Positions 1,110 to 26,621 of a stretch of 26,672 nucleotides of DNA are shown here, in pieces. A model generated the notes under the pieces. The model made no database searches. It had not been told where the DNA came from and was given only the letters and a program-made list of their open reading frames with translations. Positions within the stretch are counted from its first letter, which is position 1; each line of letters opens with the position of its first letter. This DNA is from a virus. Made by a program: the position numbers and the translations under genes. Location of the stretch: positions 1 through 26,672 of IMG/VR virus record IMGVR_UViG_3300027901_000163; one strand, written 5' to 3'.

Positions 1110-4100
1110 ATGGGTATGATGCGTTATGTCTACGAGTATAATGGTATGCGATATACCATTGAGGCTCCTGAAAACTCTACAGCGGAAGACCTTGCCGCTA
1201 TTGTAGAGGGTAATAACGCTACCCCTAAAAAGGATGCGGGGTTCCTCGGCTCGTTTATGGACTCCGCTAAAACGTTGGGTCTTAGCGATGAAGCCACTGC
1301 GTTCGCAGCTAACCCAAACGAACAAACTCGTAAGGCGTTTCTGGATGCTGCGGAGTCTAAGTATAGCAAAACCGATTTCGGCAAAGGCAAAGACTGGGAA
1401 GCATTCAAAGAGCTTGCCGGTAGCAGCTTAGGTGCTCTCGTTGCGCCGGTTGCGGTGGGCGCTGGTGCTTCTGCGCTTACGACCCCTGTTGGTGGTTTGG
1501 CTGCGGCGAGCGCCACGTCGGGTACGCAATACACCATTCAGAACCTGCTGCGGCAAGCACAGGAACAGCAGAATGCCGTGCAAGCCTGGGAAGAACTGAA
1601 GCCGGTTTCGGTCGGTAAGGCGGTGATTGCCGCCGGAGGTCAAACGGCGCTTGATCTAGCGGCGGGTCCGGTATTTAGCAAAATTGCTAAAACGTTTCCG
1701 TTTATGCGCCCCCTGTTGGCGGAAGCAGGCGGGAAAGCGGCGGCACGTGCTGGTGAAGTGCTGGCGGATGCGGCAAAGAAAGGCACGATTACCTTTGCCA
1801 AGGGCGTCGCCAAGGGTGTCGGCAAAGGTGTCGCCTTTGAGGTCCCGCAGGAAATCGCTCAGCAAGCACTGGAACGTTGGCAAGCTGGCCTTGGGTTGGC
1901 GGATGATGATGCGCTAAGCGAGTACAAACAAGCGGCCATCGGGGCGGCGATCCTTGGTGGTGGCTTCGGCGCAATCGAAGGTGCTATCCCGGAAACGCGG
2001 GCGGAAGCCGCCACAAAAGAAGAGCCGAGTGCTCCTAAGTTCGACCGTAAGTCGTTTAGCGAACGTCTCCGTGCGCCCTTGGCGGATATAGTGGTTGTAC
2101 CGGGGGCTGCTCGACATATCGACGCTGTGCAGCGTAAGCTGGAAAATGATGTACGCTTGAACACGCCGGAGAGTTTGGCTTCTTCCGAAGCCTACCTTCG
2201 TGCTGTTGAGGACAACATCGACGCGGGGAAGTACCCTGATAATGAGATCACGCCCTTAGAAGCTGTGGTCAAGCAAGCGCGCACCATTCTAAATGAGCGC
2301 CGCGAGCAGTCTGCGGCGGGAGAAACGGCAAATGGAAAGCCGACTGAACAGGTTTCAGAACCTGATGGCGGAACTGGACTGGCTGTCGCTGGACGAGATG
2401 CAAGCGGCGTTTCTGCACCTGTGGGACCCGGACCTGCCGAGCCCGCAGCAGGAAGTGCTGGAGCAGATATCAACGCGGGAGTGGAAACTACTGGAGCTGC
2501 TCCTGTCGTCTCTGATGTTGGAGAAGGAACACAGCCGCGTCCACTGACGATTAAGGCTACCAAAGAGCAGCGATATGCGGCGCTAAATGAAGCGGGCAAC
2601 CGGTATCCGCTGGACTCTAAGGAACACGATGCTTTCTACCGTGGCGCTATCAACGCTCCTCCGGATGAGTATTTTAATTCTCTAGCCACTAAGCAAGAGG
2701 TAGCAGCTTATCAGGAAGGGTTGAACTATGCAGGAGAGCAAGCGCCGCCGGTTAATGCTGCGCCGGAAATCTCTGCGCCTGCTGTAGAACCTGCTGCGCC
2801 CGTTGAACCGGTAACGCCCACTGAAAAAGCCAAGGTGGCTGAAGAGGCTGCACCGCCTACGCCGCCTCCGCCTCCGCCTGCTAGCGGTCCAGGACTGCGT
2901 AATCCTGCGAACCCCGAGAAGCCGCTTTCTGTGCCGGAGTTTAAGGCGGCGCTTGAACTTGAGCGTAAGTTTTCAGACGAGTTCGCAGACGCTGAAGAAC
3001 TCACCAAATACTTTGGTGACTTGCAAGATGAGACGGGTTCAGTCCCTGAGCAGTACAATCTTGGCCATGGTTTTGAACTTCACAAAACTACTAAGAGTGG
3101 CTTGCAGCGGGAGATCGAACGTAAGTTTGAACGACCCCTAATTAACAAGATAGCGGAAGCTAAAGTCCCGTTGAGTGACGTGGCTACCTATTTGCTGTCG
3201 CGTGCCGCGCCGGATCGTAACCGCATGGTCCGAGCACAAAACGCTGCGTTCCCCGAGGGGGGTTCGGGTATCCTTGACGCAGAAGCCGCCGAGAATATGG
3301 CGGAACTGAAGGCGCGTGGACTTCTCCCGAAGCTGGAAGAGATAGCCGCGTTCCACGACAAGCTCGTCAATTATATGCTCGACCTACAGGTCAAAAATAA
3401 CCTGCTCTCTGAGGAGCAAGCTAAAGCTCTTCGAGAAGAGCAGCCGTACTATACGCCGTTCAAGGGCTTCGCTTTGGATGGTGACTTCCTTACGGCAGAC
3501 CCACGAGATGACGCTCACTCTCCGGCCCGACGCGCCGCCATAACCAGTGCAGGTCGTGGTATCCGCACGAAAGAGTTTTTCTCTGCGATGGGTCGCAAAT
3601 CGCTGCCCTTCCACCCGCTGTTCAACCTTCTGACAGACGCCGAAGCTCTCGCGCGTCGCGTCGAGATGAACAAGCTATATGTAACCCTGCTGGATATGGC
3701 GAAAGCCAATCCTCAGTTTGGGTCGGAAGTTATCGCTAACGTCTACACAGACAATAACCCGCGTCGGAAAACTATTCCGAGTGCGACGAACCCGGCTGGC
3801 AAGCAAATCCAAGTACCGATGTCGCAGCAAGTACGTGAGAAAGATTCACGTCTGCACGTAGCTAAGCTTAACGGGCAAAACCAATACATTGAGTTTCGGT
3901 CGGATACTGACGCGGGTATCGCGGCGGAACGGTTGTTTTCTAACCTGACGCCTAAAGAAATGAGCGAGACGATGCGTAACGTGACGCGCATCAACAACGC
4001 GCTCAAAGGGCTGCTCACCTACCGCAATCCGCTCTATCTGACCATTGTGGCTCCGGCCCGCGATATTTCTGACGCTGTGGCTACGGCGCTGCATAACCAG

Positions 4101-5678
4101 AATGTCAAAGGCTCGCCTCTCTTCAAGAAGGGCATTGCGCTCAAGGTCGCCAAGTACTCGCTCGACCCCACCATGTGGCGTACGGTTACGCGCTGGATCA
4201 TGGGGCGTGAGCCGGTGAAGGGCCAAGAAGAACTGATGGCGCTTCTGGATAAGATGATTATGGATGGGGGTGCCCCCATGCAGGTCCCGTTCAAGAACGC
4301 AGAGGAAAAAGCTAACGCAGCGGTCGAAGAGCTTAAACGGCTGGAGGGCGTTGAGCGTGGCGACTCTGTTGCTATCACTAAGCAAGCCGCGCACACCTTC
4401 GGTAAGTTTTTCGACCACTGGGCGGAAATCAACGACATCGTGCCGCGTTTCGCCACTTACCGCGCGGCGACTGAAGCAAACCTTACCGGAAGGCAAGCGG
4501 CGTCTTTGTCGCTGGATTCTTCACTGAACCTGACGCGTCGGGGTGAGTATGCTCGGTTGATGGACAACCTCATTCCGTTCTTTAGCGCGGGCGTTGAGGG
4601 AAGCCGTAAAGTTGTGCGGATCGCTACTAACCCACGGTCGGTCGCCAAGGTGATTGGCGGCATGGTGGCGCTTGGTATCGCGGAGTCTTTAGCTAACGCT
4701 ACGTTCGGCGGCGATGACGACGATGACGGCGTCCCGGACTACCTTACTGTTGACCGTAATAAGCGTATGTCGCGCTTGGTCGTCTCCTACGGTGGCGGTG
4801 ATAAAAACGTGTCTCTGCCGATTGGGCAGATGCTGGGCTACTTCAAATACATCGGCAACAAAATCGCCGACACATGGATGGGCGTATCCAGCGGGGAAGG
4901 CGCGGCCATGGCTATACAAGACGCCAGCTTCGACGTCGCCGCTGGGGTAGTCAGCCTCATGTCTCCGGCCCGTATCCAAGGTGGTGACCTTCAATCGACT
5001 CTGGCCTCCCTTACCCCCCTGATCGGTAAGCCGGTGGTGGACGTTGTGCGGAATAAAAACTTCTTCGGTACGCCGATCTACACGCAACGACGCGAAGGCA
5101 TGGGTCCGAGGTCGGAACTGGGCCAAGCGGCAACGGCGGACTTTTGGAAGGGTATCGCCACGTCTATCAACCAACTTACGGGTGGCAGCCCGGCTACGAG
5201 CGGGTACGTGGATATTCAGCCGGAAGTTTATGAGTATCTTATTAATACGTATCTTGGTGGAGCTGCACGACTTGTTAAGCAGGTGGGGAGTTTTGCCGAA
5301 GAACCCACGACCAAAAACGCTCCCGTCCTTCAGGGGTTCTTAGGCATCGGCTTCGACTATGCCCCACAAAACAGGTTCCGCAAGAACACCAAAGTGATCG
5401 CTGACGTGCTGGGGCGCGGAGAGAAATTGTCTGACGCGCAGCTGGTCAAGCTCCAAGCCAGCAACCCCGTGGCGTTGGACCCGGACATTGTGGACGCGTA
5501 TATCGAAGTCGACAGAAGCATTGACCGGCTCTATCGGGAACGTGCTGTGGTTATGAAGGAAGCCAAGGACTCCGGGGAACGCAAACTGTTCAACGACTAT
5601 TACCTCGGTGAAATGAACAAGCTGTGGTCTGCGTTTAACTACACGTACGAGAAGCGCCGCGTGGAACAGAGCCAATAA
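1110..5678 (+). CDS. Large polyvalent virion protein with LPD38-like C-terminal region
   Basis: A 1522-residue protein. The N-terminus has a small polar domain (RYVYEYNGMRYTIEAPE). Hydrophobic Ala/Gly segments follow at about residues 100-140 and 170-190, and again near 280, possibly for membrane insertion during ejection. A Pro/Ala-rich linker (PPPPPP) lies near residue 590. The C-terminal half, roughly residues 815-1265, resembles the large polyvalent-protein-associated domain LPD38: RNPLYLTIVAPARDISDAV, DIVPRFATYRAA, and NLIPFFSAGVEGSRK, followed by an acidic DDDDD run near residue 1200. Proteins of this kind are injected or internal virion proteins in podovirus-like phages. The start is uncertain because ATGs at codons 1, 3 and 4 share a weak ribosome site. 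I see no clear catalytic motif. It is the last rightward gene and converges on the leftward operon. Confidence 0.8.
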   Translation: MGMMRYVYEYNGMRYTIEAPENSTAEDLAAIVEGNNATPKKDAGFLGSFMDSAKTLGLSDEATAFAANPNEQTRKAFLDAAESKYSKTDFGKGKDWEAFKELAGSSLGALVAPVAVGAGASALTTPVGGLAAASATSGTQYTIQNLLRQAQEQQNAVQAWEELKPVSVGKAVIAAGGQTALDLAAGPVFSKIAKTFPFMRPLLAEAGGKAAARAGEVLADAAKKGTITFAKGVAKGVGKGVAFEVPQEIAQQALERWQAGLGLADDDALSEYKQAAIGAAILGGGFGAIEGAIPETRAEAATKEEPSAPKFDRKSFSERLRAPLADIVVVPGAARHIDAVQRKLENDVRLNTPESLASSEAYLRAVEDNIDAGKYPDNEITPLEAVVKQARTILNERREQSAAGETANGKPTEQVSEPDGGTGLAVAGRDASGVSAPVGPGPAEPAAGSAGADINAGVETTGAAPVVSDVGEGTQPRPLTIKATKEQRYAALNEAGNRYPLDSKEHDAFYRGAINAPPDEYFNSLATKQEVAAYQEGLNYAGEQAPPVNAAPEISAPAVEPAAPVEPVTPTEKAKVAEEAAPPTPPPPPPASGPGLRNPANPEKPLSVPEFKAALELERKFSDEFADAEELTKYFGDLQDETGSVPEQYNLGHGFELHKTTKSGLQREIERKFERPLINKIAEAKVPLSDVATYLLSRAAPDRNRMVRAQNAAFPEGGSGILDAEAAENMAELKARGLLPKLEEIAAFHDKLVNYMLDLQVKNNLLSEEQAKALREEQPYYTPFKGFALDGDFLTADPRDDAHSPARRAAITSAGRGIRTKEFFSAMGRKSLPFHPLFNLLTDAEALARRVEMNKLYVTLLDMAKANPQFGSEVIANVYTDNNPRRKTIPSATNPAGKQIQVPMSQQVREKDSRLHVAKLNGQNQYIEFRSDTDAGIAAERLFSNLTPKEMSETMRNVTRINNALKGLLTYRNPLYLTIVAPARDISDAVATALHNQNVKGSPLFKKGIALKVAKYSLDPTMWRTVTRWIMGREPVKGQEELMALLDKMIMDGGAPMQVPFKNAEEKANAAVEELKRLEGVERGDSVAITKQAAHTFGKFFDHWAEINDIVPRFATYRAATEANLTGRQAASLSLDSSLNLTRRGEYARLMDNLIPFFSAGVEGSRKVVRIATNPRSVAKVIGGMVALGIAESLANATFGGDDDDDGVPDYLTVDRNKRMSRLVVSYGGGDKNVSLPIGQMLGYFKYIGNKIADTWMGVSSGEGAAMAIQDASFDVAAGVVSLMSPARIQGGDLQSTLASLTPLIGKPVVDVVRNKNFFGTPIYTQRREGMGPRSELGQAATADFWKGIATSINQLTGGSPATSGYVDIQPEVYEYLINTYLGGAARLVKQVGSFAEEPTTKNAPVLQGFLGIGFDYAPQNRFRKNTKVIADVLGRGEKLSDAQLVKLQASNPVALDPDIVDAYIEVDRSIDRLYRERAVVMKEAKDSGERKLFNDYYLGEMNKLWSAFNYTYEKRRVEQSQ

Positions 5679-14475: not shown

Positions 14476-14532
14476 TCACGCCGCCTCTTTGACACGCGCC
14501 AGCCGCAGTTCGTGCTTTTCGTCTTCGGTCAT
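14476..14532 (-). CDS. Possible 18-residue coupled mini-ORF
   Basis: ATG at 14532 overlaps the stop of the membrane-protein gene as ATGA. It encodes MTEDEKHELRLARVKEAA and stops three bases before the ATG ATG of the 58-residue gene. Coupling at both ends argues that it is translated, if only to pass ribosomes along. It is too short to assess otherwise. Confidence 0.4.
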   Translation of the reverse strand: MTEDEKHELRLARVKEAA

Positions 14533-14738
14533 TGGTCAGTCCCCCGAACAGCCGCAAGGATCGCAGTTACACCGTTCCACACGCAGTACGCGCCGAGCGG
14601 CATAAGCCATCCCGCCATGACAATGTAATTTTGATCCTGCCCGATGCCCTTCTGCATTCCAGCGTAGAATGCGAGCATGAGGCTTGCGGCCATTAGGCAG
14701 CAGCCGGTGATGGTGGCGATGATGTCGTTGGGTTTCAT
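14529..14738 (-). CDS. Small two-helix membrane protein
   Basis: 69 residues from the ATG at 14738, chosen because AAGGAGCAAAC lies directly upstream; a longer in-frame version from 14816 would translate part of the repeat array and lacks a ribosome site. Two transmembrane segments are visible: IIATITGCCLMAASLMLAFY (about residues 6-25) and YIVMAGWLMPLGAYCVW with VTAILAAV (about 37-62), with a short GMQKGIGQDQN loop between. It could be a holin-like or accessory membrane protein, but no lysis genes are adjacent. A TATAAA-like -10 on the minus strand (14761-14766) lies just upstream, without a clear -35. Confidence 0.7.
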   Translation of the reverse strand: MKPNDIIATITGCCLMAASLMLAFYAGMQKGIGQDQNYIVMAGWLMPLGAYCVWNGVTAILAAVRGTDQ

Positions 14739-14779
14739 TGTTTGCTCCTTACTGGTTGTGTTTATACGCTCTGAGTGCG

Positions 14780-15348
14780 TGGTTCGGTCGTCCGTTTTGG
14801 CTCGCTCATGTGGCATGGTTCTTTCGGGATGCTTGGCTCACTCTCTTGGTTTGGTTCTGTCTGATTTCCTGGCTCGCTCTGGCAACCTGGTTCTGTCGAC
14901 CTGCTTGGCTCACTCCGCACACCTGATCCTATCGTGAATTTTGGTTCGCTCTTCTCGGATGGTTCAGTCGGTTCCTTTAGCTCACTCTCGAAATCTGGTT
15001 CGTTCGCGCTCTATGGCTCGCTCTGGTGCGGTGGTTCTGTCCAATCTACTGACTCACTCAGAGTCGCTGGTTCTGTCTTTCTGTTTGGTTCGCTCTACCC
15101 ATCATGGTCCTGTCTCTTCACTTGGCTCGCTCTTGGAAGTTGGTTCTGACATCTAGTGTGGCTCGCTCCTGCGTTTTGGTGCTGTCCTTCTGTTTGGCTC
15201 GCTCCTGCGTTTTGGTGCTGTCCTTCTGTTTGGCTCGCTCTTGGCCACTGGTTCTGTCTCGGCTTCTGGCTCGCTCACAAATTTTGGTTCTGTCCCTTGG
15301 TGTGGCTCGCTCTCGATTATTGGTTCTGTCGCGGGGGCTGGCTAAAAC
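14780..15348 (-). repeat. Alternating short-core repeat array (32 cores of 10 bp, 31 variable spacers)
   Basis: The only gene-free stretch over 300 bases. Cores begin every 18 bp from 14780 to 15339 and alternate strictly between two types: TGGTTCTGTC-like (16; 7 exact) and TGGCTCGCTC-like (16; 9 exact). On the leftward-transcribed strand they read GACAGAACCA and GAGCGAGCCA. Spacers are 8 nt, except one of 9 nt at 15096-15104, and look unrelated apart from one duplication. The last core (15339, TGGCTAAAAC) is degenerate; a possible stray copy sits at 14753. Spacers vary at all positions while cores do not, so constraint is on DNA or RNA rather than codons. TGGCTCACTC variants put TGA stops in one minus frame, and the 9-nt spacer shifts the plus frames. 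It starts 9 bases after the end of the IS110-domain gene, on the same transcript. Confidence 0.95.
15159..15240 (-). repeat. Exact tandem duplication of a 36 bp repeat unit inside the array
   Basis: 15159-15194 and 15195-15230 are identical, including both spacers (ctgcgttt and cttctgtt) and a shared core variant TGGTGCTGTC found nowhere else in the array; the next core (15231-15240) continues the match. This shows that the array has grown by copying a whole two-core unit. Confidence 0.95.
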
Positions 15349-15357
15349 TAAATCTAC

Positions 15358-16203
15358 CTAATTCACACCCGGCCCGTGCTTGACGTGGGCATGACCGAGA
15401 ATACCGATAGCGTAGGGCAGCGGCGGCGCTTTGCCGTGGTGCTGGACATACATCATGTGGTGCAGATCACTCAGGAACAGCTTGACTGCATAGCGACGTG
15501 CGCGGGCGTGGATGTGAGCCGGGGGTAGCTTGCCCTGCGAGTAGGCTTTGTATGCGTCGGTATCCTTACCGATATTCTTCTTCTCCAGAACAGCAGCAGC
15601 CTGCGCCGCAAATTCACCGCGCTCGTTACGTTCAATCTCAAGCAGCTTCCGTTCCTTATATGCCTTGGCGTAGTAGGCGTCGTCGTGACCGCCGACCTTC
15701 ACGAAGCTCTCGCCCAGCTTCCAGCACAGCACCTTGAGGTCGGCATTCCACGGGCGCTTCTGCTTCTTTTCCCATACCTTAGACGGCTCCAACCCAGCGA
15801 AGGACCAGAACGCACCAGCCGTCTCCGCCTTGGTGATATCAAGGTGAGCTAGGAACCCAGCGGCAATCACAGGCCCAATGCCCTTCTGCGAGCGCATCCA
15901 CTGCCCGATAGGGTCGGACTCCGAATAGACATCCAACGCCACCTTGATCTGCTCTTCGAGCGTGCGGTTCATGTCCGCCAGCCACTTCACTGTCGTATGA
16001 GGCTCGCCGTCCTTCGCCATGCTACGAACCTGCCCGTCGCTGCGGATGCGGTTAGCTTGCAGTTGGTAATAAGCATCTACAAGGAAGCGGGCTTCGTCCT
16101 TGCCCAGCGTCGAGCCCGCAGCGCGCTCGTCCTTAGTCAGCTTGCGGATAGCTTCCTGAATGACGCCAATGCTCGGGGTATCGTAGTCGGTAGCGGTAGT
16201 CAT
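15358..16203 (-). CDS. Phage protein with IS110/IS116-type C-terminal transposase (HhH) domain
   Basis: 281 residues with a strong ribosome site (AGGAGCAAAC). Residues 101-170 match the C-terminal domain of IS110-family transposases (PF02371-like): helix-hairpin-helix QKGIGPVIAAGFLAHLD (106-122), then GAFWSFAGLEPSKVWE (130-145) and KRPWNADLKVLCWK (149-162). Ser141 after GLEP could correspond to the IS110 catalytic serine, but the usual SGG context is absent, so activity is open. The N-terminal ~95 residues are helical and carry no DEDD RuvC-like domain, which true IS110 recombinases have. The C-terminal third is distinct: KLPPAHIHARARRYAVKLF and a His-rich HHMMYVQHHGK. It is not a whole insertion sequence, as no element ends are seen. 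It lies immediately upstream of, and is co-transcribed with, the repeat array. Confidence 0.75.
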   Translation of the reverse strand: MTTATDYDTPSIGVIQEAIRKLTKDERAAGSTLGKDEARFLVDAYYQLQANRIRSDGQVRSMAKDGEPHTTVKWLADMNRTLEEQIKVALDVYSESDPIGQWMRSQKGIGPVIAAGFLAHLDITKAETAGAFWSFAGLEPSKVWEKKQKRPWNADLKVLCWKLGESFVKVGGHDDAYYAKAYKERKLLEIERNERGEFAAQAAAVLEKKNIGKDTDAYKAYSQGKLPPAHIHARARRYAVKLFLSDLHHMMYVQHHGKAPPLPYAIGILGHAHVKHGPGVN

Positions 16204-17030: not shown

Positions 17031-17536
17031 TTAAGCCAGCCTTTCTTTTTGGTTTTGTGCTCTTGCACTACTTCTTGGTAGGCTTTGAGGGTGTCCAGTT
17101 GGCGCTTTGCTAGTAGCTCTTGCATTTCATGTTCTATGTGCGCGTTTTGTTGCATGGCTGACTGGTATGGGGAATTTAGGTTCCCTATCGCGTTCATCGC
17201 GTTCGCGGCACCGACTTTTAATGGGAGGGGCTGTATCCCGGCGTTCACCGACTGAACCTTCAGCACGGCATCCATACGCTTCCTCCGCTCTTCTTCGCGC
17301 CGCGCCTCACCGTTACACAGTTCGTCCATAGCCCGCTCGTGGATTTCATTCATGATGATACGGGCACGTGCCTGCTTCAAAGCGGCGATTTCCTCGTCCG
17401 TGCCATATTCTTGAATGTCCTCTACCACATTAACCCAACGGCTAACGCCGAGCTTAAACTCGTCCGGGAAACTCTCCATCCTACGCAGCATAAGCTCTAC
17501 GACAGGGTGGAATTTGGGTTGCTCTTCATCCGCCAT
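17027..17536 (-). CDS. Hypothetical phage protein, charged and helical
   Basis: 169 residues from the ATG at 17536, which has AGGAGCAAC upstream; an earlier in-frame ATG at 17560 lacks one. It overlaps the 3' end of the polymerase gene by 11 bases. It reads PKFHPVVELMLRRMESFPDE early on, then ALKQARARIIMNEIHERAMD, a Glu/Arg-rich helix (EARREEERRKRMD), and ends in KTKKKGWLK. Likely two coiled-coil stretches. Placement next to the polymerase suggests a DNA-metabolism role, but I recognise no family. Confidence 0.7.
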   Translation of the reverse strand: MADEEQPKFHPVVELMLRRMESFPDEFKLGVSRWVNVVEDIQEYGTDEEIAALKQARARIIMNEIHERAMDELCNGEARREEERRKRMDAVLKVQSVNAGIQPLPLKVGAANAMNAIGNLNSPYQSAMQQNAHIEHEMQELLAKRQLDTLKAYQEVVQEHKTKKKGWLK

Positions 17537-19310
17537 AAGTTGCTCCTGCTTTAGCTTCACAGTTCAGAGGTAGCGCCGGTGCCCACGCGGGCCTCATACG
17601 CATACACCGCATTATGTAGTCCTTAGCCTCTTCGACCTCGGCTTCGGGAACGAGAGACACCACGCTGTCATGCACCGTCATAACCACACGGTACTTTTTA
17701 GCTATGCGTAGCATCTGTCCGCCGATGGCGATGCGGGCCAGCGCCTGACAAACATTCTCGACCGACGCGCCACCCCATATGCGCTTAGGGATAACCGCCT
17801 TACCCTTCTTGGTGTCGTAGATAAGCTCGGTTTTCTCGCCGTTCCTATACCAACGCAGGTTGGGGTATTGCAGCCTAAACCCGTTGGGCAAGTAGACGCC
17901 CTGCTCCCCAGCCACCGTCAGCACACCGTCCCGTCCGTATGGTGCAGTTTGGTTGTTAGCCATAGCATCAAGGGCTTCAGACGCTTCTCGCCACAGCCTC
18001 GGGATCATTGGGTACGTCTCACGGTACACCGCGATAATCCGCTTGCACTCGTCTAGCGGCATTTGGACATTGAACGTTTTGAGTTGGGCTTGAAACTTAA
18101 GCGCCCCCATACCGTAACCACAGTTATGGACGATAATTGGCCCTGCACTGGTCGCAATTGTGTATCTGTTCCTCGGCCCGGCGAAGGCGATGTCGTAGGT
18201 CATCAAGTTCCGTCTGAAGGATACTGACCTTTCTTCGGTTAGCTTGGTTATCTGCCCGCGAGACAAACCGGATATTACCGGGTTCGTACCCTCGGTTGTT
18301 GTCGATGCGGTCCATGTCGAATTCGGGATTATCCCATCCCGGCACAGTTTTGGCGTAGCGCAGGAACTCAACGCGGTCGGCTCTCCATAACTTGCATACG
18401 GTGATGCCTCTACCTCCATAGTCTGCATATACCCGGTTGGTGGGTACGTGGCAGCGGCTGATGGCCGAAGAAAGCCGGTTGAGCAGTCGCTCCCGGTGCG
18501 CGGTATCGGGAAGTGCATGGCTATATTTCCAATAGCGTTTTCTGTGCCCTTCCCGCCTACCACACAAGGGGCAGCGAGTACTTTTGAAGTCTTTGAAATT
18601 ATTCTTATCGACGGTATATTCTGGTCGCCCGCAACCGCATTGGACGATGAGCGCAGATACTCCGCCCCTCGTTCCCGCGACGTACCCGGTGACGACCAAC
18701 TGACCGCTCCGGTGTCCAATGCTAGGGAGAGGATACCTCTGTCTTGCGCCACTGACTGCGCTTCCAGCCACTGGGTCCCGCACAATACTTTGTGATCCGG
18801 CGTCAACCAAAGCCCGCAAAGATTCAATGTTTCTTTGGTGCCTTTCTTCACTAGCCCTTGGTGGCATACCCATTCTTCTCCGTCCCATAGCTGGTCAAAG
18901 GTAGTCACCTCCTCGATTGCTACCCAGCCACGATCCGTCAGTACTAGAGTTCCCTCGGCAAGACAACCCAATATAACCGTCTTACCAGCGAAACGCTCGT
19001 CTTTGGTTATATCCGCCGGTTCTTTCCCATAAATCTTGGCAGCCATGATGCGGTAAACGTCTTCGCCGCGTTCAAACGCCTCCACCAAGTCATCCTGCCC
19101 AGCTAACCACGCCAGCGTGCGGGCTTCGATCTGACTGCTGTCGCAATCCACGATCCAGTATCCCTCCGGTGCCGCTATGGTCTTCTTGAGCGGAGACTTG
19201 CGGGGCAGGTTCTGCATGTTGATCGAGTCCGAGTTATGGACAAGTTTACCGTTAGCCGCAAAGCGGTGGCGGGGGCCGCAATTTTTTATGTCATAGACTG
19301 GGACGAGCAT
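17526..19310 (-). CDS. polA-like: Family A DNA polymerase, C-terminal half, with split-intein C fragment and a second intein
   Basis: 594 residues from ATG 19310, chosen because GGAAGGG lies 7 bases upstream and the peptide then begins exactly at intein block F. Residues 1-26 (MLVPVYDIKNC...GKLVHN) are IntC1. The extein resumes at Ser27, SDSINMQNLPRK, then motif A VDCDSSQIEAR (Asp57). At FAGKTVILG a second intein starts (Cys116-Asn396) and the extein resumes at Cys397, CGYGMGALKF, completing motif B. Motif C is MTVHDSVV (His547-Asp548). The exteins (89 + 198 residues) plus the 319-residue N-terminal half would give a ~606-residue polymerase, normal for T7-like enzymes. Splicing itself is inferred. 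Confidence 0.9.
   Translation of the reverse strand: MLVPVYDIKNCGPRHRFAANGKLVHNSDSINMQNLPRKSPLKKTIAAPEGYWIVDCDSSQIEARTLAWLAGQDDLVEAFERGEDVYRIMAAKIYGKEPADITKDERFAGKTVILGCLAEGTLVLTDRGWVAIEEVTTFDQLWDGEEWVCHQGLVKKGTKETLNLCGLWLTPDHKVLCGTQWLEAQSVAQDRGILSLALDTGAVSWSSPGTSRERGAEYLRSSSNAVAGDQNIPSIRIISKTSKVLAAPCVVGGKGTENAIGNIAMHFPIPRTGSDCSTGFLRPSAAATYPPTGYMQTMEVEASPYASYGEPTALSSCATPKLCRDGIIPNSTWTASTTTEGTNPVISGLSRGQITKLTEERSVSFRRNLMTYDIAFAGPRNRYTIATSAGPIIVHNCGYGMGALKFQAQLKTFNVQMPLDECKRIIAVYRETYPMIPRLWREASEALDAMANNQTAPYGRDGVLTVAGEQGVYLPNGFRLQYPNLRWYRNGEKTELIYDTKKGKAVIPKRIWGGASVENVCQALARIAIGGQMLRIAKKYRVVMTVHDSVVSLVPEAEVEEAKDYIMRCMRMRPAWAPALPLNCEAKAGATYGG
18123..18965 (-). other. Intein 2 in polymerase motif B, in-frame, 281 residues
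   Basis: It begins CLAEGTLVLTDRGWVAIEE (block A, Cys1) and has block B LTPDHKVLCG. It ends MTYDIAFAGPRNRYTI... with GPIIVHN before Cys+1, so the nucleophile pair is Cys/Cys with terminal His-Asn. Between blocks B and F about 180 residues are Ser/Thr/Gly-rich with no recognisable domain; that DNA encodes an HNH endonuclease in another frame. An ATG at 18203 sits exactly at the start of block F (27 residues to the end), mirroring the start of IntC1. IntN2 and IntN1 are related: LWDGEEWVCHQGLV versus VWDGEEFVAHEGVV. Confidence 0.88.
18124..18888 (-). CDS. HNH homing endonuclease nested out of frame within intein 2
   Basis: 254 residues from ATG 18888; ATGs at 18873 and 18867, after GGAGAAGA, are better placed, and a later non-ATG start near residue 60 is possible. 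A zinc-finger-like set CGCG (C84, C86) and CPLCG (C106, C109) precedes the HNH core: NRVYADYGGRGITV (about 151-164), then FDMDRIDNNRGYEPGNIRFV (190-209), typical of phage HNH homing endonucleases. The end has a heptad-like ELDDLRHRLRRAEEQ and a CDQC pair. Its stop (18124-18126) falls on the last codons of intein 2, so the last 27 residues are read from the same DNA as blocks F and G of the intein. Confidence 0.82.
   Translation of the reverse strand: MGRRRMGMPPRASEERHQRNIESLRALVDAGSQSIVRDPVAGSAVSGARQRYPLPSIGHRSGQLVVTGYVAGTRGGVSALIVQCGCGRPEYTVDKNNFKDFKSTRCPLCGRREGHRKRYWKYSHALPDTAHRERLLNRLSSAISRCHVPTNRVYADYGGRGITVCKLWRADRVEFLRYAKTVPGWDNPEFDMDRIDNNRGYEPGNIRFVSRADNQANRRKVSILQTELDDLRHRLRRAEEQIHNCDQCRANYRP
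19233..19310 (-). other. Split-intein C fragment (IntC1)
   Basis: 26 residues with block F (VPVYDIKNCGPRHRF) and block G ending KLVHN, followed by Ser as +1 nucleophile. It stands at the very start of the C-terminal polymerase gene. Its first 20 bases overlap the end of the homing endonuclease gene. Confidence 0.85.
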
Positions 19311-20061
19311 ACTTTTCCCTTCCAAGGATTTCCTCATCGGTCGCGCCTTGTGCAATCCATGAGCGCAGCGTTTCGTAAGATAGGTCGGCCCGGTGCTCCC
19401 TAAGCATTCTGATGCGCTCTCCACTGTGCGTTCTTTTATATGCGCGCTTGTTCCGCGCTTGTTCGCTATAAGTGGCCCATCGAAGGTTCCCTGGCTCGTA
19501 GCCTCGGGAGTTGTCTATACGGTCTAGAGAAAAGTGCTCACCGGGTTTAGGTCCTAAATTGTCTAATGCCCATTCCGCAAACGCCCGGACGGAAGGAAAA
19601 CCAAAAGTAACGCCTCTACCTCCATAGTTAGGGTAAGGCACGGCGTTTGGGTTCGTGCACCGCTGTTTTATCGAAGAACCCAGACTTCGCATGTACGCCA
19701 GGGATGCTCCGTATTTGCGCCTATAGGGGTCTTCAGCTAGGCGCGCAGCTAATGATAGCTTTGCTGCATCCGAAGCTCGCTTAGCCATAGTTACCCGTCG
19801 CTCATGGGGCACCTTCAAAGCTTTTAATTTGGACGAGCAAGACCGACAGCACCTGCTCATACCTGCGATCAGCTCCCGTACCCGTACCTCACTCTCCTTC
19901 CCGCACTGGCAACGGCATAGGACTTTATGTTTGGTGCTTACGTGCAAACTGCTTAGCGGCGTCCACGTCGTCTGCTGTAGGGCTGCGCGCAGTCTGGATT
20001 CGGTGCGATCCCTGCATAGCGTCTCGTAAGCCAATCTCTCCGGCGTCAGTGAATACGACAT
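19291..20061 (-). CDS. Free-standing HNH homing endonuclease between the split-intein halves
   Basis: 256 residues from ATG 20061 (GAGG just upstream); a later start is possible, since the first ~30 residues may be only shadow of the intein frame. Cys-rich segment LCRCQCGKESE (C49, C51, C53) and CCRSC (C71-C75) suggest a zinc finger. The HNH core is VPYPNYGGRGVTFGF (141-155) and FSLDRIDNSRGYEPGNLRWA (177-196), then EQARNKR. The C-terminal helices (about 215-245) may contact DNA. It overlaps the N-terminal polymerase gene by 137 bases and IntC1 by 20 bases, each in a different frame. The target is presumably the uninterrupted polymerase gene at the AHTGRW motif (inference). Confidence 0.88.
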   Translation of the reverse strand: MSYSLTPERLAYETLCRDRTESRLRAALQQTTWTPLSSLHVSTKHKVLCRCQCGKESEVRVRELIAGMSRCCRSCSSKLKALKVPHERRVTMAKRASDAAKLSLAARLAEDPYRRKYGASLAYMRSLGSSIKQRCTNPNAVPYPNYGGRGVTFGFPSVRAFAEWALDNLGPKPGEHFSLDRIDNSRGYEPGNLRWATYSEQARNKRAYKRTHSGERIRMLREHRADLSYETLRSWIAQGATDEEILGREKYARPSL

Positions 20062-21205
20062 GATCCTCAGTACCTGTAACTCCGTCCCATTCGACGACCT
20101 CAGAGAAGCCGCTAAAGACCACGCCCTCGTGGGCCACAAACTCTTCCCCGTCCCAGACCAGATCATCAAGCAAGACGTCCACGATGCGCTTTGTCTGCAC
20201 CCCGTGGCTGGTGTTGTACACGCAAACCTGTGTATCGCCAACTAAACAACCGCCCCACCTGCCTGTGTGGGCCGCGTAGTACCGCAGGGGTATAGGTAGC
20301 CTCCCCCTACCCGACACACCGAGAAGTCGCTCGGTGCGTGTCTCCTCCAGCGTGCTCTTTACCCCTAGCCTAGCAGCGACAATGGCCTGCACGATTACAT
20401 CTTCGTGCTCTAGGAGCGCCTTGAACTCCTCATCGTTCTTGGCGAAGGCATACGTCTCCTTGCCTGTCGTCGGGCTTATCTTGACGGGCGGCTCGACCCC
20501 AAGGCTTCGCAGCGTCTCGGCCAGCTGGCCGTTGGACATAAGGTTGTCCTTAGATATTAGCGCCTTATCTAACAGCTGCTCTTTCTTATGCCGCACTTCC
20601 TTAAGGTGCTCGTTCAGCTTGTCGCTGCTTAGGACTAGCTCCGGCTCGGAGAACATGCGGGTGGTCAAGTCGATCAGGCGGAACTCCTCGACCGGGAACC
20701 CCTGAGCCATTTTCACAAACAGCTTATACGTAAGCTCGACGTCGTTAACGCCATACACACCGTACCGGGCTAGCTCGTCGGGAGTGAAGTCCAGCCTACG
20801 CTTGCCCAGCGCATGAATGACTTCATCGCCCTTGATGCCTGCTCCGTGGCGCTCTGCCAGCACAGCCAGACTATTACCCGCATCGGGGCCATCCAGCGCC
20901 CGCGCCATAGACAGCGTATCCGCAATGCGCTTGGGGCGGATGTCGAAGTGCCAGTTCAGGATAGCCATATCGAACATGGCGTTGTGGGCTACAGCAGTTG
21001 CAGTTTCCCAGTCCCACTGGTCCAGCCAGCGTTTAGTCTGCGCCTTGGTTCCACTAAACCAAACGGCGGCTTCCTCGTTACGCTTGACGCTAACCCCGAT
21101 TGTCTCGAAGTCGGCGTGACGGATGTACTCCTCCGTCGTCATTTTGGAGAGCGAGTACGTAGACGAATAGAACGTCTCGAAGTCGATGGTAAGGATGTCA
21201 CCCAC
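19925..21205 (-). CDS. polA-like: Family A DNA polymerase, N-terminal half, fused to split-intein N fragment
   Basis: 426 residues, GTG start at 21205 preceded by GGGGAG. The 3'-5' exonuclease domain has Exo I TIDFETF (D8, E10), Exo II VAHNAMFDMAIL (D79) and Exo III YGVNDVELTY (D155). The thumb/palm region runs to RYYAAHTGRWGG (residue 319), where the classic polymerase A motif is cut. Cys320 starts IntN1, and the gene ends after residue 426. The rest of the motif, SDSINMQNLPR, begins the C-terminal extein encoded from 19310. Active polymerase therefore should need protein trans-splicing between two separately translated products. It overlaps the small upstream gene by 8 bases. Confidence 0.9.
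   Translation of the reverse strand: MGDILTIDFETFYSSTYSLSKMTTEEYIRHADFETIGVSVKRNEEAAVWFSGTKAQTKRWLDQWDWETATAVAHNAMFDMAILNWHFDIRPKRIADTLSMARALDGPDAGNSLAVLAERHGAGIKGDEVIHALGKRRLDFTPDELARYGVYGVNDVELTYKLFVKMAQGFPVEEFRLIDLTTRMFSEPELVLSSDKLNEHLKEVRHKKEQLLDKALISKDNLMSNGQLAETLRSLGVEPPVKISPTTGKETYAFAKNDEEFKALLEHEDVIVQAIVAARLGVKSTLEETRTERLLGVSGRGRLPIPLRYYAAHTGRWGGCLVGDTQVCVYNTSHGVQTKRIVDVLLDDLVWDGEEFVAHEGVVFSGFSEVVEWDGVTGTEDHVVFTDAGEIGLRDAMQGSHRIQTARSPTADDVDAAKQFARKHQT
19928..20248 (-). other. Split-intein N fragment (IntN1)
   Basis: 107 residues: block A CLVGDTQVCVYNTSHG, a conserved middle (VWDGEEFVAHEGVV) and block B GVTGTEDHVVFTDAGEIGL with the TxxH-type TEDH, then a tail to the stop at 19925. About 130 residues with IntC1, a typical mini-intein size. 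The endonuclease start lies within block B. Confidence 0.85.
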
Positions 21206-24301: not shown

Positions 24302-25516
24302 TCAGATGTTCGGGTCCATGTACACCGTAACGCCAAAAGGCGCGGTAAGACCCTTCGTCGTTATAACCCACAGTACCGGATAGCTCGGCGGGCGCGTGGG
24401 CCACGGGGTATAGCCATCCGTAAGGATGATGGCGCACTCAGGCTCAATGTTTTTCTTCTCAATGTAGTCGAACACGCAGTTGACGTCGGTGCCTCCCCCA
24501 CCCGCAGGCTTTGTGGTGTTAGGCATAGCATCGTAGGTAGAGTCATCGTACTCCTCGTGCCGCGCAATTGCCGCGTCCCAGTAGAGCAAGTCGATCTTAT
24601 CGGGACGCACTTCCTTCGCCAGCGACACCATCTCGGTGACAAGCGACATAAGCTCCTTGCCAGCGATAGACCCCGACGTGTCGCAGCAGTTTGCGATACG
24701 CCCCACGCGCTCCGACATAAGCGAAGGCATGGCGATATCTTGGGCTAGGAACCTACGGTTAAGCCGACGCCATGTGGACTTATCGCGCCCATGACACAGG
24801 GTCCGGACGAAATCAGCCAGCACTTCGCGCCAGTTGATCTTAGGCTCAAGCAACTCGGCCAACTCACGGGCCAAGTTACCCGCACCGTCGCCGTTCACTT
24901 TCCGATGCTCCATCGCGCCTTGGCGAGCCGCTCGGTCAATCTCCTTACCCAACGCCTCCTCTTGCGCGGCGCTACGCTCGGAAGCCTTGTCCCAGTCGTG
25001 ATCGTCGAAGTTGTCGCCGCCACTACCGTCGCCGCCGTTGCCTCCTTGCTCCTCCTGCTCCTGCTTAAGAACGCGGAAGATCGCAGGCACATCCATGCCA
25101 CGGAACCGCTCGTCCAGTAGACCGATCAGCTCGCCGTCAGGCGAGCGAGGCATGGCGATAAACTCCTCGGCAGGGTCCATGTCGTGAAGCATCAGATTGA
25201 TGCGGTAGTCACAGGCCATGTTAGCCAGACGCGCGTCCTGCTCATAAAGCCGCTGCCACGTAGACAAATGCCGTTCCAGCTTGTGCCCGTTCTCATGAAG
25301 CACAACGAAGGCAAGCATCTTCTCGTTAAGCATCTCGACAAGACGCCTACCGTAGATTTCGTTGCACCCGTCAGTACAGGCGGTAGGTACATCGTCGGAG
25401 AGTATTGTATCTCCGACCATCATGATCCCACGCCAGAACGCAAACTTATCTTGCCGCATCAGGTTAATCTTGACGCGCTTAAGTTTGCGCTCCGCTGAGT
25501 CTTGTTGCTCATACAT
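24302..25516 (-). CDS. Putative metallopeptidase-VWA protein (DUF2201-like)
   Basis: 404 residues; TAGGAGCAAAC ribosome site. The N-terminal part has LHENGHKLERH (H74, E75, H78), a zinc-peptidase HExxH motif. A Gly/Asp/Gln-rich hinge (about 155-185) follows. The C-terminal VWA-like domain has NCCDTSGSIAG (MIDAS DxSxS, about residue 280), GGGTDVN (MIDAS Thr) and AIILTDGYTPWP. This is the architecture of DUF2201 proteins that pair with MoxR ATPases. Possibly metal-dependent remodelling or proteolysis of a host or phage target (inference). Confidence 0.85.
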   Translation of the reverse strand: MYEQQDSAERKLKRVKINLMRQDKFAFWRGIMMVGDTILSDDVPTACTDGCNEIYGRRLVEMLNEKMLAFVVLHENGHKLERHLSTWQRLYEQDARLANMACDYRINLMLHDMDPAEEFIAMPRSPDGELIGLLDERFRGMDVPAIFRVLKQEQEEQGGNGGDGSGGDNFDDHDWDKASERSAAQEEALGKEIDRAARQGAMEHRKVNGDGAGNLARELAELLEPKINWREVLADFVRTLCHGRDKSTWRRLNRRFLAQDIAMPSLMSERVGRIANCCDTSGSIAGKELMSLVTEMVSLAKEVRPDKIDLLYWDAAIARHEEYDDSTYDAMPNTTKPAGGGGTDVNCVFDYIEKKNIEPECAIILTDGYTPWPTRPPSYPVLWVITTKGLTAPFGVTVYMDPNI

Positions 25517-25553
25517 TATGTTTGCTCCTAGTGTGTTATAGGAAGGCTTTACA

Positions 25554-26621
25554 CTACAAGAGGTCTTGGTTTTGCAGCAGCCAGTTCTTGTAGGTGCTGT
25601 TGCGGAAGCCGACGTGTTGCTTGTTTGACTTAGCCAGCGTCAGACAGAAGGTCGCCTGCCACTGCGTATCCAGCCGATCCAAGTAGGACATGAAGGCGTC
25701 AATCGACTCCGCCTCAACGCGTTGGATTGCACCGAACACCAGCACCGCCGTCGCACCGGGAGAGTCCGGAACACGAGCCGCACGGGGGTTGTCGATAATA
25801 TCTTTCCACGGCGGGATGTCGTTTTGGTACGCTATGTACGCACTCAGGTCACGCGCACCCTGCTCACCGATTGTACCGATCATAGCAGCCAGAAGGGTAT
25901 TCTCGGAGTAGTCACGGCGGCGCTTCACGATAGGCGAGACACGCGACAGCGAGCGAGGCGAGACGTAGGCTTTAGCCGGGCGCTTGGGGTTGAAGATGTA
26001 GTGATTCTCCTCTTGGCCTGCGTCTAAGTAGCTAGCCATACACTGGGGCGTATTAGTAACCCACGCGATCACCGCACCAGAGACGCCAGCGTTAACCGCA
26101 TAGTTATGTATCCACTCCTCGCTCGTAGGCTTACGCATCCGCACCGTAGTCTGCCGACCGATGGTATGAGCCTTGCGCGTGTCGCCCACGCCGTCCGATC
26201 CGAGATTGCCAGTCGAGTAGATGATGCTCCCCTCAACCACCGTCTTATCGCCAAGGCGAGGGTTCGTTTCCTCCAACAGCGGGTGAAGCATGTTCTTCAC
26301 CGGCTCTGCCCCCTTGGTAAGCTCGTCCAACATAATCAGAACGCGCTCGCCGTGGTGCAGCTGGAAGCGTTCGTTAGGATAGTAAGTTGTCGTCTGCGAC
26401 TCATGGCGCAGGGCAGGCATGGCGATGTCGCCAAGGTCAAGGTTAGGCACGTCGATATAAGCACACCGCGTGATGCCGGTCTTGGCCGCGATGGCGTTCA
26501 TCATGCTTGATTTGCCGATGCCCGGCTCACCCTCCACGTGGACCCTGATTTCAGGATTGGCCGCGATAAGCGACACGCACTCGTTAAACGAAAGCGTAGT
26601 ACCGAAGTTGATGTTGCTCAT
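25554..26621 (-). CDS. MoxR-family AAA+ ATPase
   Basis: 355 residues. Walker A GEPGIGKSS (31-39), Walker B VLIMLDEL (94-101) and sensor 1 IIYSTGNLG (133-141). The phrase DLGDIAMPALRHE and a downstream RQTTVRMRKP (possible Arg finger) fit MoxR-like AAA+ enzymes. It heads the cluster with the VWA and DUF3150-like genes; MoxR ATPases commonly act with VWA proteins as chaperone-like activators. Ribosome site AAGGAGCAAAC, preceded by a palindrome at 26641. Confidence 0.88.
   Translation of the reverse strand: MSNINFGTTLSFNECVSLIAANPEIRVHVEGEPGIGKSSMMNAIAAKTGITRCAYIDVPNLDLGDIAMPALRHESQTTTYYPNERFQLHHGERVLIMLDELTKGAEPVKNMLHPLLEETNPRLGDKTVVEGSIIYSTGNLGSDGVGDTRKAHTIGRQTTVRMRKPTSEEWIHNYAVNAGVSGAVIAWVTNTPQCMASYLDAGQEENHYIFNPKRPAKAYVSPRSLSRVSPIVKRRRDYSENTLLAAMIGTIGEQGARDLSAYIAYQNDIPPWKDIIDNPRAARVPDSPGATAVLVFGAIQRVEAESIDAFMSYLDRLDTQWQATFCLTLAKSNKQHVGFRNSTYKNWLLQNQDLL

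Follow-up and report, generated by a model that had tools for sequence, protein, structure and literature searches.

TIGR-Tas systems, which resemble CRISPR in being RNA-guided and bind DNA, are built on arrays in which edge and loop repeats of 8 to 12 nt alternate, separated by spacers of about 9 nt (8 + 8 nt in SpTIGR), and in which the edge repeats at both array ends are truncated. Both kinds of repeat contain box C (CCA) and the same box D motif, and the array lies right next to the tas gene, upstream, downstream or on both sides, and in its orientation. The arrays are processed into 36-nt tigRNAs, whose spacers A and B pair with opposite strands of the DNA (PMC12045711). The genuine targets of these systems were stated as not known, and the role of the nuclease-less TasA was left open (Faure et al. 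2025, PMC12045711). Here, we analyzed a stretch of viral DNA of 26,672 nucleotides (IMG/VR record IMGVR_UViG_3300027901_000163, positions 1 to 26,672; called the window below), in which a repeat array lies next to a gene encoding a protein of 281 amino acids (aa). This locus is almost certainly a TIGR-TasA system. The best overall explanation, to which we assign a probability of about 0.85, is that of a TIGR-TasA system whose relatives carry guides against the early operon of phages devoid of tas, and which serves interference between phages.

The locus resembled TIGR-TasA systems such as FpTIGR of Flavonifractor plautii, with a solo Nop-domain protein and, adjoining its gene in the same orientation, an array in which edge and loop repeats alternate in 36-nt units and the edge repeats at the ends are truncated. 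It differed from FpTIGR by spacers of 8 rather than 9 nt, a box D reading GA and not UG, the presence of 16 units, and the lack of a terminator after the array. With SpTIGR-TasH of Salicola phage CGphi29 it shared the phage-borne nature, 16 nt of spacer per unit and an adjoining array, and TasH chains were its best structural matches; however, TasH has an HNH nuclease, which is missing from the window protein. Were TasA to bind rival mobile elements and leave them uncut, it would work similarly to the type IV and V-M CRISPR-Cas systems (an analogy drawn in PMC12045711). Unlike these, the window locus has no Cas protein or protospacer-adjacent motif, and its guide is split into 8 + 8 nt instead of forming one long spacer.

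TasA protein and array architecture

The 281-aa protein matched the NCBIfam model NF052498 (TIGR_Tas) with an E value of 1.3e-61 and 208 bits (cut-off, 100). Its AlphaFold2 model (predicted local distance difference test score, 90.4) displayed an all-helical Nop fold, with no predicted structure for the N-terminal ~23 residues. When this model was compared with the PDB using Foldseek, the top 11 matches were all TasH or TasR chains (template modeling scores of 0.49 to 0.63). A profile of the family gave matches with TasR (9mty; E value, 6.6e-24) and TasH (21kl; E value, 6e-15), and matched IS621 weakly. No nuclease family was found in a Pfam scan of the protein, and because it showed neither HNH nor RuvC, the domains of the TasH and TasR subtypes, we assigned it to the TasA subtype. 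The invariant tryptophan W144 may take the place of the catalytic serine found in IS110 Tnp domains.

The array lies on the minus strand and consists of 16 units of 36 nt, one of them longer owing to a 9-nt spacer. In the sense direction, each unit is composed of an edge repeat (GAGCGAGCCA), an 8-nt spacer A, a loop repeat (GACAGAACCA) and an 8-nt spacer B. The array starts at 15343, 14 nt past the tasA stop codon, and ends at 14767. Both repeats start with GA and end with CCA (box C); box D is the same in both, GA rather than the UG of TasR. Read on the plus strand, the array appears as 10-bp cores (TGG[CT]TCNNTC) at an 18-bp step from 14780 to 15330, with cores cut off at both ends. The two-core pattern was found 16 times in the window and 0 times in 100 shuffles; the array cannot be a product of chance. 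Its main features and those of its surroundings, all on the minus strand, are as follows.

15358..16203, minus strand: tasA, encoding a 281-aa Nop-domain protein devoid of HNH and RuvC domains and ending in a TAG codon at 15358-15360 (NCBIfam, AlphaFold2, Foldseek and Pfam)
14767..15343, minus strand: TIGR array of 16 units (sequence; family members share its placement and direction with respect to tasA)
15339..15343, minus strand: 5'-truncated edge repeat AGCCA, which opens the array (sequence; truncated ends are a TIGR hallmark, PMC12045711)
15321..15330, minus strand: first loop repeat of the array, GACAGAACCA (sequence)
15303..15312, minus strand: first full edge repeat, GAGCGAGCCA (assigned as edge from the truncated ends and the cross-edge pairing)
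15159..15240, minus strand: tandem-duplicated tigRNA unit with spacers AACAGAAG / AAACGCAG (exact; units absent in contig L106)
15086..15104, minus strand: edge repeat that, in plus-strand direction, precedes the sole 9-nt spacer TACCCATCA, giving a 19-bp step (sequence)
14767..14771, minus strand: 3'-truncated edge repeat GAGCG, which closes the array (sequence)
14529..14738, minus strand: short gene of 69 aa right after the array, with no family and with its own AGGAGC resembling a ribosome-binding site (sequence)

An earlier note on this DNA, made from the letters alone, had located the array correctly and had recognized that it lies directly downstream of the 281-aa gene in the same orientation. 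Its count of 32 cores at an 18-bp step needed revision: 31 cores are complete, either end of the array carries a truncated edge repeat, and the only departure from the 18-bp step is one of 19 bp, from 15086 to 15105. Similarly, its 31 spacers of 8 nt became 32 spacers, one of them of 9 nt, corresponding to 16 two-spacer units. The strict alternation of two core types that it described stood, in a positional sense: some cores are degenerate (e.g., TGATCCTATC and TGGTTCGCTC), and the edge and loop places alternate throughout. That note knew of no described repeat class with such a geometry; one was published in 2025 (PMC12045711). Its proposal of a multi-unit RNA with 8-nt guides, or with cores binding an IS110-like protein, corresponds to the mechanism published for TIGR-Tas (PMC12045711), of which tested signatures were found at this locus.

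The array sits within an operon, the ribosome-binding site of the next gene following it directly. No family was matched in an Rfam search, no similarity of the array to phage isolates was found at the DNA level, and nothing was found in plasmids. The exact 36-bp duplication, detected by TRF, involves two neighboring units and is absent from the near-identical contig L106. More generally, when the arrays of related phages were aligned, they shared blocks with few substitutions and differed by replacement, gain or loss of whole units. Purifying selection on the spacers was considered, as the window and L106 differed at 0 of 209 spacer positions and at 10 of 139 fourfold sites; it was rejected in favor of a local recombination patch, because the two genomes are almost identical apart from local patches, one of which lies inside tasA. 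That patch of silent changes, in which the 10 fourfold differences occur and the protein is identical, spans positions 6301-6862 of L106 and is a sign of recombination into the gene.

RNA unit and distribution of the family

In the published tigRNA structure, each end of the RNA stems from a different edge repeat, and bases of the one pair with bases of the other (PMC12045711). We therefore examined the edge repeats of 116 family arrays. Position 7 of an edge repeat and position 4 of the next edge repeat could pair in 98.7% of 1352 cases, as compared with 92.1% expected, while the same positions within one edge repeat could pair in 91.5% of the cases, with 91.0% expected; the expected values derive from base frequencies and related arrays were counted as independent, so the comparison is descriptive. 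The window has two edge repeats with an A at position 7, at 15086 and 14942; in the sense direction, the next edge repeat after each (15050 and 14906) has a T at position 4. The covariation thus joins neighboring edge repeats, which fits a functional 36-nt RNA cut inside the edge repeats. From homology and covariation together, the array would yield 36-nt guides loaded on TasA.

To find related arrays, IMG/VR contigs were scanned for three consecutive cores, which gave 110 stretches. Arrays of up to 71 cores were identified in 105 of them with the first detector. Alternation was evident across these relatives, cores being of the same type in 22% of the cases at lag one and in 85% at lag two. 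Wherever the gene next to an array found by its pattern was readable, it encoded a homologue of the 281-aa protein in the same orientation.

The reverse search, with the protein only, used a 37-member alignment (A1) and recovered 499 relatives in viral contigs, 80 of which were kept, and 14 in GTDB genomes, including Halomonas sp. NO4, Acidobacteriaceae bacterium KBS 96, Bryobacterales, Propionivibrio and Kiritimatiellae. Together with two isolate phages, 96 loci were inspected. A TGGYTC array was present in 70 of them, always in the direction of the gene and usually ~12 bp past the stop codon. Among the remaining 26 loci, at least 19 had dual-core arrays with a period of 34, 36 or 37 bp, in which the edge core was similar and the loop core differed, so that a two-core array was found in at least 89 of the 96 loci. 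The association of gene and array, which the earlier note had suggested checking, thus held: most of the 80 viral loci fetched by protein had the array, in the same orientation without exception, and most of the others had an array of the other-core type. Five loci (L125, L130, L133, L153 and L175) had a tasA homologue with room on both sides and no clear dual-repeat periodicity; TIGR arrays of the stem-loop type may be present there, or no array at all.

Both isolates, Salicola phage CGphi29 and Microcystis phage Mvi-JY20, fell within the other-core group. In the cyanophage Mvi-JY20 (PP438412.1), the product of 3857-4612, annotated as a "hypothetical protein," is a Tas protein (NF052498, 193 bits) in which no nuclease domain was detected, and a 36-bp dual-repeat array lies directly 3' of its gene, at 4621-4870. 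Microcystis is unmentioned in the main text of the TIGR paper (PMC12045711). The longest arrays had 93 cores (L171, 2326-3991) and 82 cores (L061, 5857-7363), and in L203 three arrays surround one tasA. These results enlarge the catalogue by hundreds of TasA loci in IMG/VR, the isolate Mvi-JY20 and prophages in cultured Halomonas and in an Acidobacteriaceae strain.

Probable targets of guides from related arrays

We then searched for DNA matched by the guides, applying the rule of spacer A joined to the reverse complement of spacer B, in tandem with gap 0. A single 16-nt spacer pair can match by chance, and only the agreement of several independent guides was counted; the contigs searched were fragments and redundant. 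Within 1.46 Mb of loci of TIGR phages, spacer-pair matches under this rule were not above those under wrong arrangements, and no enrichment of self-targeting was found. The guide found in the largest number of array contigs (GCCAGGCT/AAGTACAC; L022, L035, L048, L061, L068 and L094) was taken as seed and scanned against IMG/VR. Eighteen of its 30 matches were at gap 0, and 16 of these fell in one gene (phrog_2480), at the invariant KYTAWP codons, 14 of them in one phage family. A second conserved guide (GGAGTATC/AGCACGCG) gave 13 matches, one of them at gap 0, and nothing coherent.

The contigs matched by the seed guide also contained matches to other guides of related arrays. The target phage family was fetched by protein similarity (A2), giving 31 contigs, and distinct guides were counted; 23 control cells combined each of three wrong arrangements with six gaps, and the right arrangement with gaps 1 to 5. 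Six tigRNAs matched exactly at gap 0, versus 4 in total over the 23 control cells. For the lineage concerned, with 298 adjacent spacer pairs, there were 5 exact matches at gap 0 versus 0 over the 23 controls, and with one mismatch allowed, 9 versus a control mean of ~1.2. Without the seed guide, 4 exact matches remained; random re-pairing of the spacers gave a mean of 0.15, and none of 2000 re-pairings reached 4. All 6 exact guides were in the edge-A-loop-B-edge register. The guides of the lineage had no exact or one-mismatch match at gap 0 in 185 kb of their TIGR phages' own genomes. No tas gene was found in the 8 full records of the target family, and tblastx detected no similarity between this family and the lineage's own loci.

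In one contig of the target family, L225, the target sites lie in the early recombination operon. Guides of the lineage had sites, exact or with one mismatch, in the phrog_2480 gene (9129), in a gene encoding 154 aa (9689 and 9785), and between the latter and a sigma-factor-like gene (10025). The operon further holds genes for Sak4, a single-strand binding protein, a Cas4-type exonuclease, a helicase and a primase. The exonuclease gene contains sites at 7261 and 6869 for one guide each of L137 and L003; the L137 guide also matched exactly in five other loci of the target family, and the TasA of L137 is 79% identical to that of the window. The 16-bp target sites of the L007, L014 and L035 systems are TAAGAACCTTCAAGAA, TACCACGAGGGCTTCC and GCCAGGCTGTGTACTT. 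One guide occurs in two variants in L007 and L008 (TGGATCGC/GTTCGCAT and TGGATTGC/GTTCACAT), each of which best fits a different variant of the site. In L014 and L035, the guides for one shared site have spacers A and B in opposite places, an exchange found to be functionally equivalent (PMC12045711). Both observations fit the capture of guides from a rival and the tracking of that rival. Taken together, the matches suggest that related TasA systems are probably aimed at the early operons of other phages. The computational route to natural targets thus worked, in that guides of several related phages led to one early operon of a distinct phage family, in the split geometry and in register. Since the matches occur in the predicted geometry and the phages' own genomes are avoided, the question of target and function is directly testable.

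TIGR-carrying and target-family contigs also came from the same metagenomes: L003, L225 and L235 (3300022752), L211 and L250 (3300033571), and L178 and L308 (3300035187). One guide of L003 (CTTGACGG/GACGCACT) fits L285, from the same sample, with one mismatch.

Proposed function and other explanations

According to the published biochemistry, the array would be transcribed together with tasA and cut inside the edge repeats into 36-nt tigRNAs, one of which would be bound by a TasA dimer. Spacers A and B would each pair with one of two adjacent 8-bp stretches of DNA, on opposite strands, and the target would be unwound and bent, not cut. In a cell shared with a rival phage, TasA sitting on the rival's early operon could then block transcription or replication, a possibility proposed by Faure et al. 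(PMC12045711), and would result in RNA-guided interference between phages. Such interference is well supported for the relatives; for the window, we infer it. We also lean towards a more specific model, in which phage-borne TIGR-TasA arrays may be inter-phage weapons: competing phages without tas would be the source of the guides, through their early operons for recombination and replication. The guides would be kept in blocks, replaced by the whole unit and adapted to target variants, and could capture the same site independently in either orientation, with spacers A and B swapped.

Several results weigh against this explanation. The 16 guides of the window had no match in 3.2 Mb of other loci. 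The evidence on targets comes from arrays of relatives whose TasA is 53 to 56% identical to that of the window, plus one guide of the relative at 79%, which is not significant alone. A control scan with a wrong arrangement clustered as well, with homologous matches in a portal-like gene at the motif SLAKYTR, so the cluster of the seed guide alone proves nothing. Finally, no terminator-like site was seen on the minus strand after the array; a rho-independent terminator is typical of TIGR systems without defining them.

An alternative, which we regard as improbable, accepts the TIGR-TasA system and holds that its natural job is to regulate genes of the host or of the phage itself, or to help an integrase, with the matches in other phages as a side effect. 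Such a role would suit a TasA without nuclease, whose function Faure et al. left open, and one guide of the window points the same way: the duplicated AACAGAAG/AAACGCAG matched the groEL NAASV codons exactly in 8 of its 20 gap-0 matches in viral contigs (L369, L377, L378, L379, L381, L384, L391 and L392). This lead is weak, because groEL is abundant and conserved and the wrong-arrangement control clustered similarly in the portal gene. No second guide of the window matched these groEL contigs, and the match may be due to chance. Moreover, matches to own genomes did not exceed the controls, in either the 1.46 Mb of loci or the 185 kb of lineage genomes, while one foreign phage family was matched several times over by guides of the lineage.

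A DNA-level role, which the earlier note had kept as its main alternative, found no support and is very unlikely; the array would then be an iteron-like origin, a centromere, or a packaging or loading site bound by the protein. The regular 18-bp spacing, the intergenic position and the neighboring nucleic-acid-binding protein would suit it. However, the array is always on the sense strand of the gene, and the pairing joins neighboring edge repeats across the 36-nt unit, which makes sense only for a single-stranded RNA. In addition, spacers match foreign DNA, the period varies among loci (34, 36 and 37), and the protein belongs to a family proven to bind RNA.

Still less credible is a guide locus similar to the bridge RNA of an IS110 recombinase. 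IS110 recombinases (IS621 and ISCro4) have a Nop-like/Tnp RNA-binding fold in common with the window protein; the sole Pfam match of the latter was PF02371 (E value, 1e-4, partial), and IS621 was a weaker structural neighbor in the Foldseek search. In contrast, the IS110 equivalog NF033542 scored 24 bits against a cut-off of 140, and Tas structures matched far better. IS110 recombinases have a RuvC-like nuclease of the DEDD type and rely on one bridge RNA, with no guide array; no DEDD domain was found in the 281-aa protein, and long tandem guide arrays are not a feature of IS110. The gene, taken for an IS110-type transposase at first sight, encodes a Nop-domain Tas protein without a nuclease domain instead. 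The locus did not fit CRISPR-Cas either: its repeats are of 10 nt and its spacers of 8 nt, compared with repeats of 25 to 36 nt and long spacers, and no cas effector or adaptation gene was present among the window proteins scanned. A degenerate coding repeat (SEPxxxTEPxxx) has a negligible chance of being correct. An 18-bp step does equal six codons, and in one minus-strand frame many of the core variants are synonymous. However, that frame, the only protein-like one, is interrupted by two TAG codons and shifted at the 19-bp step, and steps of 17, 19 and 37 bp are common in relatives; the array is noncoding, as first proposed.

Elsewhere in the window, a family A DNA polymerase gene (17526-21205, minus strand) is split into two open reading frames (ORFs), 19925-21205 and 17526-19424. 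The first of these closes, and the second opens, with an intein-like half, and a free-standing HNH-like ORF (19291-20241) is enclosed by the two halves. Another intein-like insert, at about 18000-18950, overlaps an HNH-like ORF (18124-18888) in a different frame. This region resembles fractured-gene split inteins. At 24302-26621, also on the minus strand, a MoxR-type AAA ATPase adjoins a metallopeptidase-like/VWA (DUF2201) protein.
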